Shown here: in pieces, positions 55,189 to 63,807 of the stretch
How positions within the stretch are numbered: position 1 is the first letter of the stretch
Layout of the letters: each line of letters opens with the position of its first letter
Assembly (NCBI RefSeq): GCF_003144245.1
Contig: NW_020289983.1
Span: 434,001 to 498,000 of the forward strand
DNA from: Jaminaea rosea
Taxonomy: Eukaryota > Basidiomycota > Exobasidiomycetes > Microstromatales
Length of the DNA: 64,000 nucleotides
Direction of reading: 5' to 3'
The notes under the pieces: generated by a model
Told to the model about the DNA's origin: nothing
What the model saw: the letters and a program-made list of their open reading frames with translations, nothing else
The model's database searches: none
Translations under genes and position numbers: made by a program

Positions 55189-58100
55189 TTACCTCATCTC
55201 CCTCCTCCTTCTCCTCAACTCCTCCAAGAAGTCCATGCTACCCCTACGTCGTCTCATAGCGCTTCCCTCCCCTCCGCGGTCCCCCTCGTCTTGCCCTGCT
55301 TTCCCCCTCCTCCGAGCAGAACCGGCAGACGTGGGAGTCCCACTCGCCGCAACAGCAGACTTCATCGCTTTCGCCCAAGCCGTAGCGCGTGGCGTGGTGG
55401 TGCCCGCCTCGGAGCGCACGCTCAGTGGTCGAGAACGTCGCGCTGCGCCTAGAGGAGTACGCGTTGCTGCGTCATCGTCTTCCTCGGCAGCGATGGTGGA
55501 GATGGCTGAGGGCGCAGATGGAGGCAGAGAAGATGGGCGGAGGATCTCGCTACGCGCCCGACCCGTGAGAGCACTGCGGTAGAGCCCTGCTCGGTCTTTG
55601 TCGTGGGAAGTGGAAGATGTGCTGGAGAAAGTGGGCAGGGTCGCTGGTGGGTCTGCTTCTTCGCCATCGTCTTCCTGCGGGCGGAAGCGGCGCGCCGATG
55701 ATGAAGAGCTTGAGGATGAGGCCGGCCGTGGAGGTTGACGAAGGCGATGAAGCGAAGACCGCGAGGATGGCGTTGGTGACTGGTTCGCAATGAGACGAGG
55801 CGACTCTGCCATACGGCTTCCGCTCCTCTGCTCCTCCACCACTCCCTCCTCACTCGGGCCCAAGCTCCTCCTGCCTGGCCTCACGACGAAAGGACTCCTC
55901 ACCCCCGTCACGCGCGCAGAGTGTCTCCTCAACCTTTTCCCCACTGCTTGCCCGCCAAATCGCTCCGCAGCTCTCGCTCCCCGTCGCGCCTTTGCCTTCT
56001 CACACCAGAAAGCCATTGCCTTCCGCAACGTACTGCCCTCATAAGCCTCATCAGCACGTCGTCGATCCAGGGCAAGGGGAAGAGCCTCCTTCCACTTGCG
56101 CAGCGCAGCAATCTTGAGTCTCATGCCATGGAAATGAAGCGCAGGAATAGGCTTGGTGCGCTCCACCCACTTGCCCAGTGCCTGGCCCATCACCCTCCGC
56201 TGGCGTAGCTGCAGGACGGCCATCTCGTTCTCCCTCAAGCTTGAGTCGCGCCAAGCATCCTCCCATCGCTCTAATGCGCCACGCAACAGCCCCACTTCGC
56301 GATCGCGCACAGCCTCTTCCCCTCTCTCGCGCACGAGACGATGTTTTCTGTATCGGCGAGCCCACTCATGCAGGACACGACGGGCGGATTCGTGGCGCTT
56401 CACGTCGAGGGAGCTTTGCGCCAGGGAGTTTAGTTCGGCGACCCGTCGGGCTTGGGTGACCCACTTGCGGAGGGCGAGAGAGGCGAGGCGTTCGTCTCGG
56501 ACTTCTGCAACTTGGAGTACAAGGGCACGACGCTCGATCACCGCAGCTGTCCATCGGCTCAGCGCCGCCCGTGTGCGTCCTTCGTCCAGACGTGACTGGA
56601 CTTGTGAGACGCGCAAGCGGTCCAGAGCTTGTTGTGCTGAGCGTTGGCGCCAGGTGGCCAGCACGCGGGCGATGAGGCGGTTGTCGTGTTGCACTTCGAG
56701 CCTCTGTCGCTTGACATTGCGCAGACGGGAGCGGAGAGTGTCGAAGGCGGTGCGCTGCTGGAACCAGTCGCGAGCTGCGAGGGCGCGCTCTGTGTTGAGA
56801 GTGTGGCTTTGGGTTGCTTTGCGCCACTGGGCGAAGAAGGCGAGGCGTGTGCGCTGATGCAAGTGGGACGTGGCGAGACTCGAGTCCTCTTTGTGGGAGC
56901 TGAGGGCGCGAAGCCAGCGAGTGAAGTACGCAGAGACCGTGAACGCGTTGCGTCTGGCTACGAGAGCTTGGCTGCGCTGCGGCAGGACGACGGTAACATC
57001 TTGTAGCCTTGACCGCCAAGCTTGCAAGGCCGCCATCTGTTGCCTGCCTTCTCTGACCCTTGACCAGAGCGAGAGACGGCTGGAAAGCTTCCAGTGTTGA
57101 ACCGCCTGAGCAGCAAGTCCGGCATCTTGGCCCTGTCGGAAGGCAATGGCTTTTGCTTCTCGTTGTCGCACCGAGGATCTTGCCCGCTTCCACTGCCCCA
57201 ACGCCGCCCTCAATGTCGCCCTTGCCTGCTGCCTCTCGGCCTGCGCCATTCTCCTCTTCTTCATCGACGCCTCAGCTACCGCTTGCAGCCAGCTGCCCAG
57301 CGCCCTTCTCTGCACACATAGTCGCTCATAGGCGCGGCTTGTTCCCTCGAGGGACGTGCGCTTCCTCCAAAGCTCCCAAATCTCTCGCAGCCTTTCACCG
57401 TCTCTTTCTGGCGGGTGCGCCTCATTCCACTGTCGCAGCAACCCACCGAGCTGCTCGCTGACCCCTTGTTTGATCCGCCAAAGGTAGAAGGCGCCGCCCA
57501 GCAAGTGTCCATTGCGGAAATTTGCGCTTCGTCGATCGGCGAGAGCTTCTCGCCAGGCACCCCAGGCTTGACGCGTCTCCCGTTGCTCCTTTCCCTCCTT
57601 GACGACTACGTAGCACTCCTTCAAGCCAATCTTGCGCTCCTCCCACCTCTTCTCTCTCCTATCCGCAACGCGGCGGCGCCATGCTCGCCATGGAGTGAGG
57701 AGCAAGCGTACCTCGTCCGCTCGCAGTGCCATCTGACAATGTGCATCGTTCGGGTCGACCGACAGCGATTTCCACTGGTGCCACGCGCGCCCGACCACCA
57801 AATTGTCCCTCGCCATCCCTACACGCTGCATGCGGGCACGACGCTCCTCGGCCTGTCCTGCCCACCAACCCAGACTCACTGCGAGGAGACGACGCTCGAA
57901 ATGTTGCTGCGCCAGACGATTCGAGCGCGACCAAGCGACCTCCTCGCCTTCTTCTGCGCGTCGTTGCGCGGCTGCGCGTAGAGGCTCGCGATTCGAGAGG
58001 ACGGCGCTCATACGTCGTTGTGCGAGGGTTTGCGTCGCCCGATCCTGATCGGAGGATGACGGCGACTCGGCCGATGGTGAGTCGAGGAGCAAGGCGACAC

Positions 58101-58818
58101 TGCCGTTGATGCGAGGACGCGAAGGGGTGCGGGCGTCCAGGGCTAGCTGGCTGGCTTGTTGCGTGAGGACGTCTAGGCGTGCGCGGAGTGCTGAGGCTGC
58201 TTGCTGCGAGGAGTTACGTGGCGTTGAAGGACCTGACGCCCAGGTCTCCTTTTCCTCTTGCTCGTCGCTGCTCTGATCCGCATCGCTCCCCTCGCTCTGA
58301 CTCTCCTCCTGCGTCCACTGTCCAGTGATCGTGGCTGCGTCGCTGCCAGCTGGTCCCACCGTATCTGCGTCGCTTTCCATTGTCGTCTCGCTATCCATTG
58401 CTGCAGTGTTGTCTCCCCCTCTCATATCCATCCCCAAAGAAAGTCGAACCGCGTCCCATCGCTCGCTCCAGTCCCTGCCCTGTACGCGCACGAGGCTCAG
58501 CAGCAGATCCCAGCGATGCGCGTCCCTCTCCTCGTCTTGCGGGCGTAGAGCCTCGTAGGCACGCTTGAGCGAGGCAAAAGAGCCATCACCGAGCGCCAAG
58601 CTTGATATGAGCTCATCGAAGAAGTGAATATCTTCGGCATCGAGTGCAGAAAAGGTCGATGTGATGGAGCGGGCTGACGACGAGCCACCCGAAGTGGTAG
58701 ATAGAGCTGGGCCGTGCGAAGTGGCTAGATGGGCTACTTCCGAAAGGTCTGATTCCGTATCGCTGGTGTGAAAGCTGTCTGATTCAGTGATAACGTCGCG
58801 ATAGCCATTGTAGGCCAT
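55189..58818 (-). CDS. SFI1: Sfi1-like centrin-binding spindle pole body protein
   Basis: A 1209-residue single-exon protein. From about residue 300 to 990 it is a long run of helical repeats spaced roughly 30-40 residues with the Sfi1 pattern of a hydrophobic residue followed by a Trp (for example VGRAWHQWKSLSVD, LLTPWRAWRRRVADR, TRQAWGAWREALADR, ALGQWKRARSS, YFTRWLRALSSH, ALSRWTAAVIER, ALERWEDAWRD). Each repeat binds one centrin (Cdc31), building the half-bridge used for spindle pole body duplication. The C-terminal 200 residues are Ser/Arg-rich with SP and TP sites, the place where Cdk1 regulates yeast Sfi1. Start MAYNGYRD at 58818 is the first ATG. Divergent from OST3 with 237 bases between starts. 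Confidence 0.88.
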   Translation of the reverse strand: MAYNGYRDVITESDSFHTSDTESDLSEVAHLATSHGPALSTTSGGSSSARSITSTFSALDAEDIHFFDELISSLALGDGSFASLKRAYEALRPQDEERDAHRWDLLLSLVRVQGRDWSERWDAVRLSLGMDMRGGDNTAAMDSETTMESDADTVGPAGSDAATITGQWTQEESQSEGSDADQSSDEQEEKETWASGPSTPRNSSQQAASALRARLDVLTQQASQLALDARTPSRPRINGSVALLLDSPSAESPSSSDQDRATQTLAQRRMSAVLSNREPLRAAAQRRAEEGEEVAWSRSNRLAQQHFERRLLAVSLGWWAGQAEERRARMQRVGMARDNLVVGRAWHQWKSLSVDPNDAHCQMALRADEVRLLLTPWRAWRRRVADRREKRWEERKIGLKECYVVVKEGKEQRETRQAWGAWREALADRRSANFRNGHLLGGAFYLWRIKQGVSEQLGGLLRQWNEAHPPERDGERLREIWELWRKRTSLEGTSRAYERLCVQRRALGSWLQAVAEASMKKRRMAQAERQQARATLRAALGQWKRARSSVRQREAKAIAFRQGQDAGLAAQAVQHWKLSSRLSLWSRVREGRQQMAALQAWRSRLQDVTVVLPQRSQALVARRNAFTVSAYFTRWLRALSSHKEDSSLATSHLHQRTRLAFFAQWRKATQSHTLNTERALAARDWFQQRTAFDTLRSRLRNVKRQRLEVQHDNRLIARVLATWRQRSAQQALDRLRVSQVQSRLDEGRTRAALSRWTAAVIERRALVLQVAEVRDERLASLALRKWVTQARRVAELNSLAQSSLDVKRHESARRVLHEWARRYRKHRLVRERGEEAVRDREVGLLRGALERWEDAWRDSSLRENEMAVLQLRQRRVMGQALGKWVERTKPIPALHFHGMRLKIAALRKWKEALPLALDRRRADEAYEGSTLRKAMAFWCEKAKARRGARAAERFGGQAVGKRLRRHSARVTGVRSPFVVRPGRRSLGPSEEGVVEEQRSGSRMAESPRLIANQSPTPSSRSSLHRLRQPPRPASSSSSSSSARRFRPQEDDGEEADPPATLPTFSSTSSTSHDKDRAGLYRSALTGRARSEILRPSSLPPSAPSAISTIAAEEDDDAATRTPLGAARRSRPLSVRSEAGTTTPRATAWAKAMKSAVAASGTPTSAGSARRRGKAGQDEGDRGGEGSAMRRRRGSMDFLEELRRRRREMR

Positions 58819-59055: not shown

Positions 59056-60219
59056 ATGCTCGCCATGAGATCAACGGCCGCGCTTGCGGCGCTGTTTGCC
59101 ACAACGGCGACGCTCCTCTCATCATTCGTCAGTGCTGAGCCCCCCTCTGCCTTGCTGGCCTCAGCCTCGCGCAACCCTTCTGGCATCGCCCACTTGGATT
59201 CGGCTGCCTTCAACTCCATCGTCAACGAAGCGGCCGCAACGCGCGACTACTCGATGTCCATCCTCCTCACCGCTCTGAATGCTCCGGGCATCGACTGTGT
59301 GCCCTGCAAGGCCTTCCAGCCTCACTACGAAGGAGTAGCCGCTGCGTGGAAGAAGAACGGCAAGGGGTGGAAGGAGGGGAAAGCCGGGCATTACTTTGCG
59401 GAAGTCAACTTTGTAGATGGCAGAGAGGTGTTCCAGCAGGTGCCCACGAGCGGCTGGCATGACCCTACATTAGCATATTGACTGACGTCCTCTCGTCGCT
59501 CCTCCTCACACGCAGCTACAAATCCAACACGCCCCGATGCTCCTCTTCCTCCCCCCACACGGCCCTGCCAACAAGGGCATCTCCTACGACTTCAATGCGC
59601 ACGGCTTCGACGCGCCTGGAGTATCGTCTCACATCTCACAGCTCATCGGAAAGCCCATCGGATACAAGAAGCCCTTCCCATGGCGCACGGCCATCATCTT
59701 CTCCCTCACCGCAATGGTGGCCACCTCGGCTGTGCTGTACGTCGTAGCGAAGGTGCAGGCACAACTGGAGGCATCGAGCGGTGGTCAGAAAAGCCTCAAC
59801 TGGCGCTCGGCCGTAGGATGGGTACTGCAGCTCGTGTGCTTGGCCACGATCACCATCATGTGCGCTGGGTACATGTGGAACAACATCCGTGGCGCACCTT
59901 ACATGAGCATGGGGTCCAATGGCAAGGTCGAATACTTTGCGGGAGGCTTCCAAAATCAATTGGGCGTCGAGACGCAGATTGTTGCATCCATCTGTAAGTT
60001 CGCGCATGAGACTGCGGTAGCAGTGGAAGGATGCGCTGACATCGATGTCTGCTCTTGCGACTGGCAGACGGTATCCTCGCCTTCTCCCTAATTGCCCTCA
60101 CCGTTCTTGTACCAACGCAGCGCGACCCGGTCAAGCAGAGGGCGGGAGTCTACGTATGGAGCGTCATCTTCCTGGGCGGAGTCAGTGTACTCTTTGCCGT
60201 GTTCAGGATCAAGAAGTGA
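59056..60219 (+). CDS. OST3: Ost3/Ost6-type subunit of the oligosaccharyltransferase
   Basis: A 337-residue ER membrane protein in three exons (introns 59440-59515 and 59994-60067, both GT-AG). A signal peptide (residues 1-27, ending SSFVSA) is followed by a lumenal thioredoxin-like domain with an active CVPC at residues 81-84, which holds mixed disulfides with substrates during N-glycosylation. The domain continues across intron 1 with LQIQHAPMLLFLPPHGP. Four membrane segments follow (TAIIFSLTAMVATSAVLYVV; VGWVLQLVCLATITIMCAGY; YGILAFSLIALTVLVPT; GVYVWSVIFLGGVSVLFAVF), and the end RIKK is an ER-retrieval-like dilysine. A second methionine three codons in (MRSTAAL) could also serve. Confidence 0.92.
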
Positions 60220-60451: not shown

Positions 60452-63343
60452 CTACTTCTTCCCACCAGGCCTCTTTGGCCTCGCGAATCCCTTCTCTCCC
60501 ACCACCCCTGCACCACTACCTCCCGCCTTCTTCTCTGTCTCTCCTCCTGCCACTTGCCCTCCTCCAGCCGTGTTCACACTCATGGAGAGTTCCTCCTCCA
60601 TCCCCTTACGCGCCTCATCCCTCGACCCAGGCCTCTGCCCAAAGCAGGCCGTCCCCACGCGTACATTACCACTACCTGCCGCAATGGCTACCTCGAAGTC
60701 GGCTGTCATGCCCATACTGAGCTCCAGACCGCCGGTGGTATCGTCGCTTGAGGAGAGGAGGGAGGAATAATTGTCATCGTCCCCCTCCTTCTCCTCTTGA
60801 CCAGAGGGCAGAGACGGCGGATCGGCGCGCAGAGCCCTTACCAATACCTCCCTGGCATCATCGAGCGCCTTGAAGTCCGGATTGGCCTCAAGCGCCTCCT
60901 GGCGACTGAGCGTCTTCCCATCACTCCCCGCCGCCTTGGAATTAGCGGCCGACCCAATAGTCATGAGTCCCGCCAGCCTCAAGTTAGGGCACTCCGTTAT
61001 GATGTGCCTGGCCAATTTCTCCAGCTCGTCCCCCTCTCGAGAAACACCGCTCTTTGCCTCTTCGCCACTTGTGTTGACTTGGATCAACACACGCAAACGA
61101 CCAAGTCCGCACTCCTTTCGCTCCTTTATCCTCGCCCCTCCCTCGGCAGTGAGGGCCTTCTCCAACCCACTAGCCGCTTTCGCAGAGTCCAACGTCTCCA
61201 CACACCACAAGTTGGGCACAGCGGCAAGCAACTTGGCTTTATTGCTCTGCAGGCCCCCGACGAAGTGCCACTTGACCTCACGGGGTAGAACGCGAGCCTT
61301 ATCGCATAGCTCTTGGACGTAGTTCTCTCCAAAGTGGGTTTGCGAGGTAAGACGAAGAGCGGCCATGATTGATGAGGGTGGGTGAAGTTTGGAGATGGCC
61401 ACGAGCCGGGCGGATTTGCCGGAGGAAGAACAAGCTTGGGCGACCCTATTCTGCATATCGCTGATTCGCCTTGAGACCTCTTCTTCTTGTGAGGGGGAGG
61501 GACGAGGGTAGGGACCGTAGGACGCTCCTCCCCCTGCTGAACCACTGCCCGCACCACCGGCAGCGGAGGCGCCGCTGGAGCCAATGGAGAGGGAGGCGCG
61601 CTCGATCTCGAGCCCAGAGAGGTCTGCAGCCTTGTCTTGGACCTCTTCGATCAGCTTGGCACGCAGAGTCGTCGTGATGCTTGCAGAGGGCGAGGGTGCC
61701 CCGCTGTAAAGGAAGGCAACTTTGCGCGCGTTCACCTCGACAGGGTAGCGGTACACCACAAGGGACAGCTCGCCTTCCTCTTTTTGCTCCACCTCCGCTT
61801 TTACAGCCTCCTCCAGATCCCCGGGCGGGACAAAGCGTGGTGGTGCTCCCGTAGATGCTAGGCTGACCGAGCGGGTAGCAACTTCGATGCGCAAGGGCAC
61901 GAAGTTGTGCTCTGACGAGCCGGAGATGCGCGACGCGAGACCAGAGAGGGCCGCTTCTGATTCGGAGCTCCAGGCCAGGGGACGGTTGGCTGATGAGGAG
62001 GAATAAGGTTGCGAAGCGCCTGGGCTCGACGCTGAGGTGTCTGCTGTACCTGGTACAGCCAGAGGCGTGGACGACGATGCGCTAGCGGATGGTGAAGCCG
62101 ACCTTGCTGCGGTTGTAGTGGCGCTCGCCTTGTCGGCCGTCACGGCGGTAGCAGCAGCAGCGGGCTTACTGCTCAGAGTAGGCTTCTGCTGACTAGCCTC
62201 ACTCTCGGACTGCGCATTCGTCTTCTCCTCTTCCGTGACCTCCGCCTCAGGCTCTTTCTTCGGCTCGCTGACCTCAATTTTCGCGGCCTCTTGAGCATTG
62301 TCGTCGGTCAGCTGTCGCTTAGCCGTCTCAGGTGATGGGACGAGGGGCTTTGATAGCTCTTTCTCGGCCTCTTCTGTCGGGACGTCGCTGTTGACTGCTA
62401 CTGGCGCTGGCGTTGGCGGTTCCTCGGGCGCCTTGCTCTCATCTGCGGCTTGCTCGCTGGCTTCGGCGGGCAGGTCCGTCTTGGAGGTTGCTGAGGCAGG
62501 AGGAGCGGTCGGGCTGGCGGACTCTTCTGCTGGAGGCTGAGCGCTGGTGGACTCCTCTTCCGCGGCTGCTTTCTGACCCGCAAGAATGTCTGCCGACTCC
62601 GCAGCGGGAATGCCGTTGGCCGAAGGAGCGATGGATGCCGATGCGTCTCCTTCACCCGCAGCAGAAGGCGCCGCCGTATCTGCTACAGCTGCGAGGGGTG
62701 CTGCAGAAGTCGTGGCAGCCTGGTTCACCTCCTCCAAGGTCTTCTGCTCCTTGTCATTCGAATTAGCTCCTGCTGGTGTGGCACCCGCCTGTCCACCCAC
62801 AGGCTTCGCCCCGAAAGTCCTCCTCGCCCCACCAACACTCATTCCCGCAGCGTCTGCCGCGGTCATCCCATCTCTCCTCTTCTCTTGCGGATTCTGATAG
62901 TCATGCTTCCTCGCATTCCTCAACTTCTGAGGGAAAGTGAAATCTCTCGGACCTGCTACGTAGACGGTCTCGAGGAAACGGTGCTCGTCTAGCCCGGAAA
63001 GGAGGGCGGTCCGGGTGGCCGTGTACTGCATCTTCTCTTTGACTTTTGCTCCGTCAGGCTGGTAGGCGATACAGAGCCATTCCCAGTCGCCGTTGGCTGC
63101 TTGGCTGTCCAGGCGAAAGAGGGCGTATCCGCTGCGAGTAGGCTCGTCGGTGAAGAGGGTGGGGAGACGCGTTTCGAAGTCTTCTTTGTCTGAGGCGGAA
63201 GGCGAGAGGCGAGCGGTAGTCTCAAGCTTCTTGACAGTTGGAGACGTCTGAACGAGGATTGCACGGATCTCTGGCTGAGAAGCTTGGTCGGTGGTTGTGG
63301 AGCGAAAGAGGTCGATGAGGGTAGGGTCAAGAGAGAAGGACAT
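60452..63343 (-). CDS. TWF1: twinfilin fused to a YggS/PLPBP-type pyridoxal-phosphate homeostasis protein
   Basis: A 963-residue single-exon protein. Residues 1-145 are an ADF-homology domain of twinfilin (GYALFRLDS, WEWLCIAYQPDGAKVKEKM, YTATRTALLSGL, FPQKLRNARKHDYQNP), a long Ala/Ser/Glu linker follows, and about 450-595 form the second ADF-H (HNFVPLRIEV; ELSLVVYRYP; ARKVAFLYSG). Residues about 610-900 are a complete PLP-binding YggS-type barrel: LVAISK (the PLP lysine), HFGENYVQEL, WHFVGGLQSNKAK, VLIQVNTSGEEAKSGV, LAGLMTIGS, LSMGMTADFEVAIAAGS and VRVGTACFGQR. The last residues, GFARPKRPGGKK, resemble twinfilin's own C-terminal tail. No stop or splice separates the parts. An in-frame ATG at 63490 would add a basic presequence. 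Confidence 0.88.
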   Translation of the reverse strand: MSFSLDPTLIDLFRSTTTDQASQPEIRAILVQTSPTVKKLETTARLSPSASDKEDFETRLPTLFTDEPTRSGYALFRLDSQAANGDWEWLCIAYQPDGAKVKEKMQYTATRTALLSGLDEHRFLETVYVAGPRDFTFPQKLRNARKHDYQNPQEKRRDGMTAADAAGMSVGGARRTFGAKPVGGQAGATPAGANSNDKEQKTLEEVNQAATTSAAPLAAVADTAAPSAAGEGDASASIAPSANGIPAAESADILAGQKAAAEEESTSAQPPAEESASPTAPPASATSKTDLPAEASEQAADESKAPEEPPTPAPVAVNSDVPTEEAEKELSKPLVPSPETAKRQLTDDNAQEAAKIEVSEPKKEPEAEVTEEEKTNAQSESEASQQKPTLSSKPAAAATAVTADKASATTTAARSASPSASASSSTPLAVPGTADTSASSPGASQPYSSSSANRPLAWSSESEAALSGLASRISGSSEHNFVPLRIEVATRSVSLASTGAPPRFVPPGDLEEAVKAEVEQKEEGELSLVVYRYPVEVNARKVAFLYSGAPSPSASITTTLRAKLIEEVQDKAADLSGLEIERASLSIGSSGASAAGGAGSGSAGGGASYGPYPRPSPSQEEEVSRRISDMQNRVAQACSSSGKSARLVAISKLHPPSSIMAALRLTSQTHFGENYVQELCDKARVLPREVKWHFVGGLQSNKAKLLAAVPNLWCVETLDSAKAASGLEKALTAEGGARIKERKECGLGRLRVLIQVNTSGEEAKSGVSREGDELEKLARHIITECPNLRLAGLMTIGSAANSKAAGSDGKTLSRQEALEANPDFKALDDAREVLVRALRADPPSLPSGQEEKEGDDDNYSSLLSSSDDTTGGLELSMGMTADFEVAIAAGSGNVRVGTACFGQRPGSRDEARKGMEEELSMSVNTAGGGQVAGGETEKKAGGSGAGVVGEKGFARPKRPGGKK

Positions 63344-63807
63344 GATGGGCGGAAGAGGGGTGAGGAGGTAGGGCGGTAGAGGAGTCGTAGCTTGATGAGC
63401 AAGTGAGCAGTAGGAGCGACCGAGTAGCGAGTGAGGTGCAGAGAGTGTTTTGGCGTAATTGCGAGCGACTACCAGTGCCAATGACAGCATACAGGGAGGA
63501 GAGGATTTGCGATGGCGTGTAGTGTTGGACGAGATGGATCGTCAACGCGGGGTCAGCGTCGAGGCGAGGCGAGCCTGGACCACAGCTTGAGCCGCCAGTC
63601 TGAGCCGGAGTGGAGAGGGGAGCGAGCGAGCCAGCGTGTGCCGTGGCTCATCTGCGCTCCCGAGTCGACGACGAATTTGGTCGACGGACTACGAGGACGT
63701 CGAGAAGGAAAGGCGACAGGCGGGAGAGCGGGAAAGCGGGAAAGAGGCTGTGACTTTGCATCCAATCAATCATCATCGCCCACCATCTCTAAAAGTCGCT
63801 GCCCGTC
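63344..63807. other. divergent promoter region, twinfilin fusion and YTM1
   Basis: The two genes start on opposite strands from this stretch. It includes an in-frame upstream ATG (63490) for the fusion gene with no stop before the main start, so part of it may be translated. Confidence 0.6.

Follow-up and report, generated by a model that had tools for sequence, protein, structure and literature searches.

In Jaminaea rosea, a twinfilin gene has probably captured YggS/PLPBP, the pyridoxal phosphate (PLP) homeostasis protein, to give a single polypeptide with an autonomous barrel, a reduced twinfilin and a partnership that is likely incidental. More broadly, the sequences are best read as one housekeeping barrel that was captured, mostly in nested form, by four or more unrelated genes within a single subphylum, the Ustilaginomycotina. 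The gene lies in a window of 64,000 nucleotides, the whole stretch of DNA analysed (Table 1), and in its single frame twinfilin ADF-H1 is joined by a long linker to a degenerate ADF-H2, after which come a complete YggS/PLPBP barrel and the twinfilin tail. An earlier note on this DNA had read it as one uninterrupted frame with two ADF-H domains and a complete barrel with its PLP lysine and signature motifs, which the frame, profiles, alignment and a model of ADF-H2 confirm.

Pfam places Cofilin_ADF at residues 73-169 and Ala_racemase_N at residues 679-853, and the NCBIfam YggS model, TIGR00044, is matched at 166.6 bits against a cut-off of 106.25. With phmmer against the PDB, the barrel matched yeast YBL036C (1ct5, 1b54) and E. 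coli YggS, and ADF-H1 matched twinfilin chains (twinfilin-1 7ccc_B; 1m4j). Foldseek on the whole protein returned 1ct5 and 1b54 as top matches, and its 50 rows were all YggS or other PLP barrels, with no ADF-H row among them. ADF-H2 was missed by Pfam and phmmer on this protein; the predicted structure of the domain alone settled its identity, giving the host part the two ADF-H domains of a twinfilin. The PLP-binding role of the YggS lysine is established, and the lysine and barrel motifs are present here, with all seven YggS motif patterns found in 12 of 12 twinfilin fusions. Like free-standing YggS/PLPBP/PLPHP (COG0325; yeast YBL036C), the nested copy has the whole barrel, the PLP lysine and a TIGR00044 score above cut-off, but it lacks its own start and stop codons and lies inside another protein. 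Its C-terminal extension, R(D/E)EARKGME-EL, resembles that of other Ustilaginomycotina YggS.

Table 1. Features of the twinfilin-YggS gene, in window positions
Feature	Position	Strand	Basis or remark
Whole open frame, 1012 codons plus TAG (P0001)	60452..63490	minus	Raw sequence, uninterrupted
Upstream in-frame extension, 49 residues, no D/E, 3 R/K	63344..63490	minus	Possible mitochondrial presequence, conjectural
ADF-H1, residues about 54-190; helix motif (K/R)EKMQYxxTR retained	62921..63331	minus	Pfam PF00241, PDB matches, alignment
Low-complexity linker, residues 233-500 (some 270 residues)	61991..62794	minus	Alignment; low model confidence
ADF-H2, residues 501-632; fold retained, without last helix and RxRMxYS	61595..61990	minus	Alignment and domain model
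Inserted YggS/PLPBP unit, residues 657-973, N-terminal letters SYGPYPRP	60572..61522	minus	Profile, PDB, alignment
PLP-binding lysine codon, K701 (VAISK)	61388..61390	minus	Aligned to yeast YBL036C (1ct5) and E. coli YggS (1w8g)
Gly/Ser/Ala-rich variable spacer between YggS and tail, residues 974-1000	60491..60571	minus	Alignment of fusions
Twinfilin C-terminal tail GFARPKRPGGKK, residues 1001-1012	60455..60490	minus	Capping-protein-binding motif by homology

Short motifs in the linker (KAPEEPPT, LS-P-VPSPET) are conserved, related forms occur in Ustilaginales twinfilins without YggS, and they may be binding motifs; in the fusion P0007 the linker holds the motifs KAPEEPPT and LS-P-VPS in two copies. 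Two neighbouring loci were also observed in the window. On the minus strand, 55189-58818 is one frame of 1209 residues with many W-x(n)-R repeats, which we take to resemble Sfi1-type centrin-binding repeats. On the plus strand, 59056-60091 holds two frames that are probably exons of the same gene; a thioredoxin-like N-terminus with CxxC is followed by hydrophobic stretches, presumably resembling the oligosaccharyltransferase subunit OST3/OST6.

The final residues had been likened in the earlier note to the C-terminal tail of animal twinfilins, and alignment to the tails of YggS-free smut twinfilins bears this out: the motif GF-(K/R)P(K/R) ends 12 of 12 fusions, after a spacer of varying length. 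When YggS-free twinfilins of Ustilago, Violaceomyces and Exobasidium were compared for tail and ADF-H2, the same tail followed ADF-H2 in 19 of 27, and the remaining eight looked truncated or misread. The Exobasidium protein aligns with mammalian twinfilin-1 (7ccc_B) into SFAKPKGPAG. Since the tail follows ADF-H2 in relatives that lack the insert, the alignment indicates that YggS is nested, with the last strand of ADF-H2 before it and the tail after it, as the note had proposed; tail conservation rules out a merely appended barrel. The tail of mouse twinfilin is reported to be a capping-protein-interacting motif in which K325, K332 and R333 matter for capping-protein binding (PMC6249002). Residues of the present tail would correspond to mTwf1 K325 and K332/R333 under that numbering.

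The second ADF-H domain is altered. RxRMxYS, a usual though not defining actin-binding motif of ADF-H2, is absent from all 12 fusions, and neither side of the insert has the last ADF-H2 helix; the helix motif of ADF-H1 is retained in the aligned fusions. ADF-H2 has probably lost most of its actin binding, and insertion of YggS into twinfilin appears to go with the loss of the motif and last helix. Relative to canonical twinfilin (two ADF-H domains and a capping-protein-binding tail), ADF-H1, the ADF-H2 fold and the tail are the same, whereas YggS before the tail, the reduced ADF-H2 and the long linker are different.

The note had advised looking for the same fusion in related genomes. A protein search scored 7989 candidates and reported 74, among which 11 further proteins combine ADF-H and YggS, at 47-53% identity over the queried region. 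These predicted proteins align end to end, sharing domain order and tail, with spacers that differ in length; carriers include Jaminaea pallidilutea, Parajaminaea phylloscopi and Sympodiomycopsis kandeliae (three of the 11). The eight residues preceding YGP contain no methionine in any of the 12 fusions, and nine of the 12 also lack one from YGP to the PLP lysine. The original YggS start has thus been lost, and re-initiation to give an intact YggS is unlikely.

A second YggS gene was sought in the 16.6 Mb assembly. The PF01168 profile matched one place, this locus, and the fusion twinfilin as protein query matched here alone; PF00241 gave six matches at four loci. With MCMBP-, DUF89- and MTHFR-YggS proteins as queries, the hosts were found elsewhere in the genome and the YggS part matched only here. 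No second copy was detected by the family profile and four protein queries, a search that ignores introns and that a badly split copy could escape; the absence of another homologue, which the note had named as support for a working fusion, was borne out to that extent. Among the listed matches, the sole protein entry for this locus is a partial YggS (P0076, residues 660-954), and a YggS entry of Microstroma glucosiphilum (P0081) is likewise named 'partial'. In both cases gene prediction seems to have been misled by the nested insert.

YggS has other hosts in sister smut lineages. The remaining reported matches comprised 18 MCMBP proteins, 20 DUF89/ARMT1 proteins, four MTHFR proteins and 21 others (P0055-P0075). 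In MCMBP, a replisome factor, host sequence flanks YggS on both sides in 18 of 18 proteins. Together with four from the free-YggS search, the DUF89-YggS proteins number 24, and both flanks are present in 15 of them by the stricter pattern and in 22 by the laxer, under which P0037 and P0090 each miss the pattern on one flank. Residues 5-261 of Malassezia P0035 resemble residues 8-267 of the damage-control phosphatase chain 7t7k_B, and residues 562-736 resemble residues 271-440 of 7t7n_B; as these are adjoining stretches of the phosphatase, the barrel sits in one loop of the DUF89 fold. In the four MTHFR proteins, YggS is C-terminal to the host's last domain, joined through a low-complexity stretch. 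The YggS motif patterns are found in 17-18 of 18 MCMBP, 4 of 4 MTHFR and 20-24 of 24 DUF89 proteins. Named carriers are Ustilaginales, Thecaphora and Violaceomyces for MCMBP, Malassezia for DUF89 and Tilletia for MTHFR. These two inserts and one C-terminal addition belong to the same YggS lineage as twinfilin-YggS, which differs from them in its unrelated host and separate junction. A pattern search for empty host sites gave nothing, but the translated loci of J. rosea revealed both: its MCMBP reads LPGRSAWATQ...KLPLSDDEEATGVILKIYDLAAAE and its DUF89 protein reads LDNSGFELITDLMLGQWLVATGHAKEVVFHAKAMPWFVSD, each with an empty YggS site.

Several host proteins among the reported matches are already named for the insert (Pyridoxal phosphate homeostasis protein). 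Outside these four hosts, P0055-P0075, from Pleosporales, plants, nematodes (Globodera, Heterodera) and further groups, have YggS joined to different sequences; in P0055, P0056 and P0058 a start-like methionine precedes YggS, and these may be merged gene models.

Free YggS proteins define the ends of the captured unit. A free-YggS search scored 7997 candidates, of which 2357 reached threshold, and the best 120 of the 2357 include free YggS of Tilletiaria, Exobasidium and Ceraceosorus. The Tilletiaria protein starts with MSNASYGAFPRPT (SYGAFPRPT) and ends with RDEAMRAMEHELKQ (RDEAMRAMEHEL); the nested unit starts with SYGPYPRP and ends with REEARKGMENEL, both matching, and the Malassezia P0035 insert opens with matching letters, RGPYPRASP. 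The boundary letters are therefore part of YggS itself, which was captured almost in full. In four free entries (P0080, P0088, P0093, P0096), Q stands immediately before PRLVA, preceded by unrelated or read-through letters, and P0088 reads through an apparent intron that opens with V-S codons and closes with Q. These free YggS genes apparently have an intron immediately upstream of PRLVAISK, which in P0088 would read GTGAGY...CAG; the nested copy of J. rosea lacks an intron at this position. The presence of this apparent intron in free relatives and its lack in the nested copy would fit RNA-mediated capture, in which the donor would have been spliced and intron-free.

In a tree of the YggS core (65 rows, 242 columns), one branch (support 97/95) separates the Ustilaginomycotina YggS from the other rows; this tree and the earlier one below cover nine of the 18 MCMBP proteins, nine of the 24 DUF89 proteins and a minority of the other free YggS. 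The twinfilin (97/97), DUF89 (100/99) and MTHFR (100/100) fusions are single clades, with free YggS rows between them. The MCMBP fusions do not group together: eight form one group (100/99) and Violaceomyces P0028 lies elsewhere. A single MCMBP clade was not rejected (p-AU 0.152). All four fusion types as one clade were rejected (p-AU 0.003), whereas twinfilin, MCMBP and MTHFR fusions as one clade were not (p-AU 0.069), so these three may go back to a single capture with later transfer from host to host. In either case the lack of relationship among the four hosts calls for four distinct junctions. An earlier tree was set aside because its segments reached into host sequence; in it each fusion type formed one clade (MCMBP 97/91), all four together were rejected (p-AU 0.0056), and neither twinfilin, MCMBP and MTHFR (0.177) nor twinfilin and MCMBP (0.237) was rejected.

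In the reading we favour, a nearly full-length YggS/PLPBP coding sequence, minus start and stop codons, would have entered the twinfilin frame just past the last ADF-H2 strand and ahead of the capping-protein tail. The product would most likely be one polypeptide, in which the barrel would fold autonomously and provide the PLP homeostasis of the cell, judging from the complete motifs and the lack of any other detected copy, while ADF-H1 and the tail would keep their actin and capping-protein roles. The host was probably picked by chance, given that YggS sits in MCMBP, DUF89/ARMT1 and MTHFR proteins in the same subphylum. The passenger would then have replaced its parent gene after capture, and the fusion would have been retained once the cell depended on both parts of the one gene.

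Gene fusions are often taken as a sign that two proteins work together, and the earlier note had suggested that this one links actin turnover to PLP supply. Such coupling, for example a capping-protein tail that tethers YggS to cortical actin patches or a twinfilin that responds to PLP, would fit the pairing kept in all 12 proteins found and the conservation of both tail and YggS motifs. The partner is not constant, however, since relatives carry YggS in MCMBP, DUF89/ARMT1 or MTHFR proteins or free, and the actin-binding motif of ADF-H2 is lost in 12 of 12 fusions; the proposed link is thus not supported, and we consider it unlikely. Twinfilin and YggS might instead work apart, if YggS were spliced out of some transcripts as an exitron or cut from the protein. 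Flexible spacers flank the insert and splicing would recreate a twinfilin-like end, but codons 615-670 of this gene hold no GTRAG-like or other listed strong donor, and with the last ADF-H2 helix absent on both sides splicing would restore no full domain, which makes separation quite improbable. That two genes were joined by an assembly or gene-model artefact, the condition under which the note's reading would fall, might be suspected from the partial YggS models of this locus and of Microstroma glucosiphilum; the frame is uninterrupted in the raw sequence and 11 other proteins from several sources share the architecture, leaving artefact with hardly any credence.

A more far-reaching version of capture, which we regard as doubtful, would make Ustilaginomycotina YggS nomadic: unrelated housekeeping genes would have captured its intact coding sequence in frame, repeatedly, by a biased, probably RNA-mediated process, with replacement of the parent on each occasion, and the upstream ATG of the twinfilin fusion would add a presequence and yield mitochondrial and cytosolic forms by leaky scanning, thereby preserving the dual location of PLPHP. 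The first ATG (63490) lies in a weak context (TGT-ATG-C); the second in-frame ATG (63343), the start taken in the earlier note and that of nine of 11 orthologue entries, has A at -3, and no other ATG lies between them. A mitochondrial form made by leaky scanning is possible on these features. The 49-residue extension as a presequence stays conjecture, as an extension is present in three of the 12 fusion entries (this one, P0006 and P0008) and a like composition is shared by 41 of the 634 stretches of 49 open codons that follow an ATG anywhere in the window. PLPHP is reported in the cytosol and mitochondria of human cells, and yeast without PLPHP to grow poorly on carbon sources that need mitochondria (PMC10463200). 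Basic N-terminal extensions ahead of a second methionine were also observed in the free YggS entries P0082, P0083, P0088, P0098, P0111 and P0131.

Domain fusion and nested insertion as such are familiar phenomena; we found no description of a twinfilin-YggS fusion or of repeated YggS capture among the titles and abstracts searched in an open-licence library. For annotation, genomes of this kind may be recorded with partial YggS genes. Within one subphylum a highly conserved domain has been paired with at least four unrelated partners, in three of them nested, and nature thereby provides a test of whether fusions reflect function or merely tolerance, as well as of how in-frame nested insertions originate and how a parent gene comes to be replaced.
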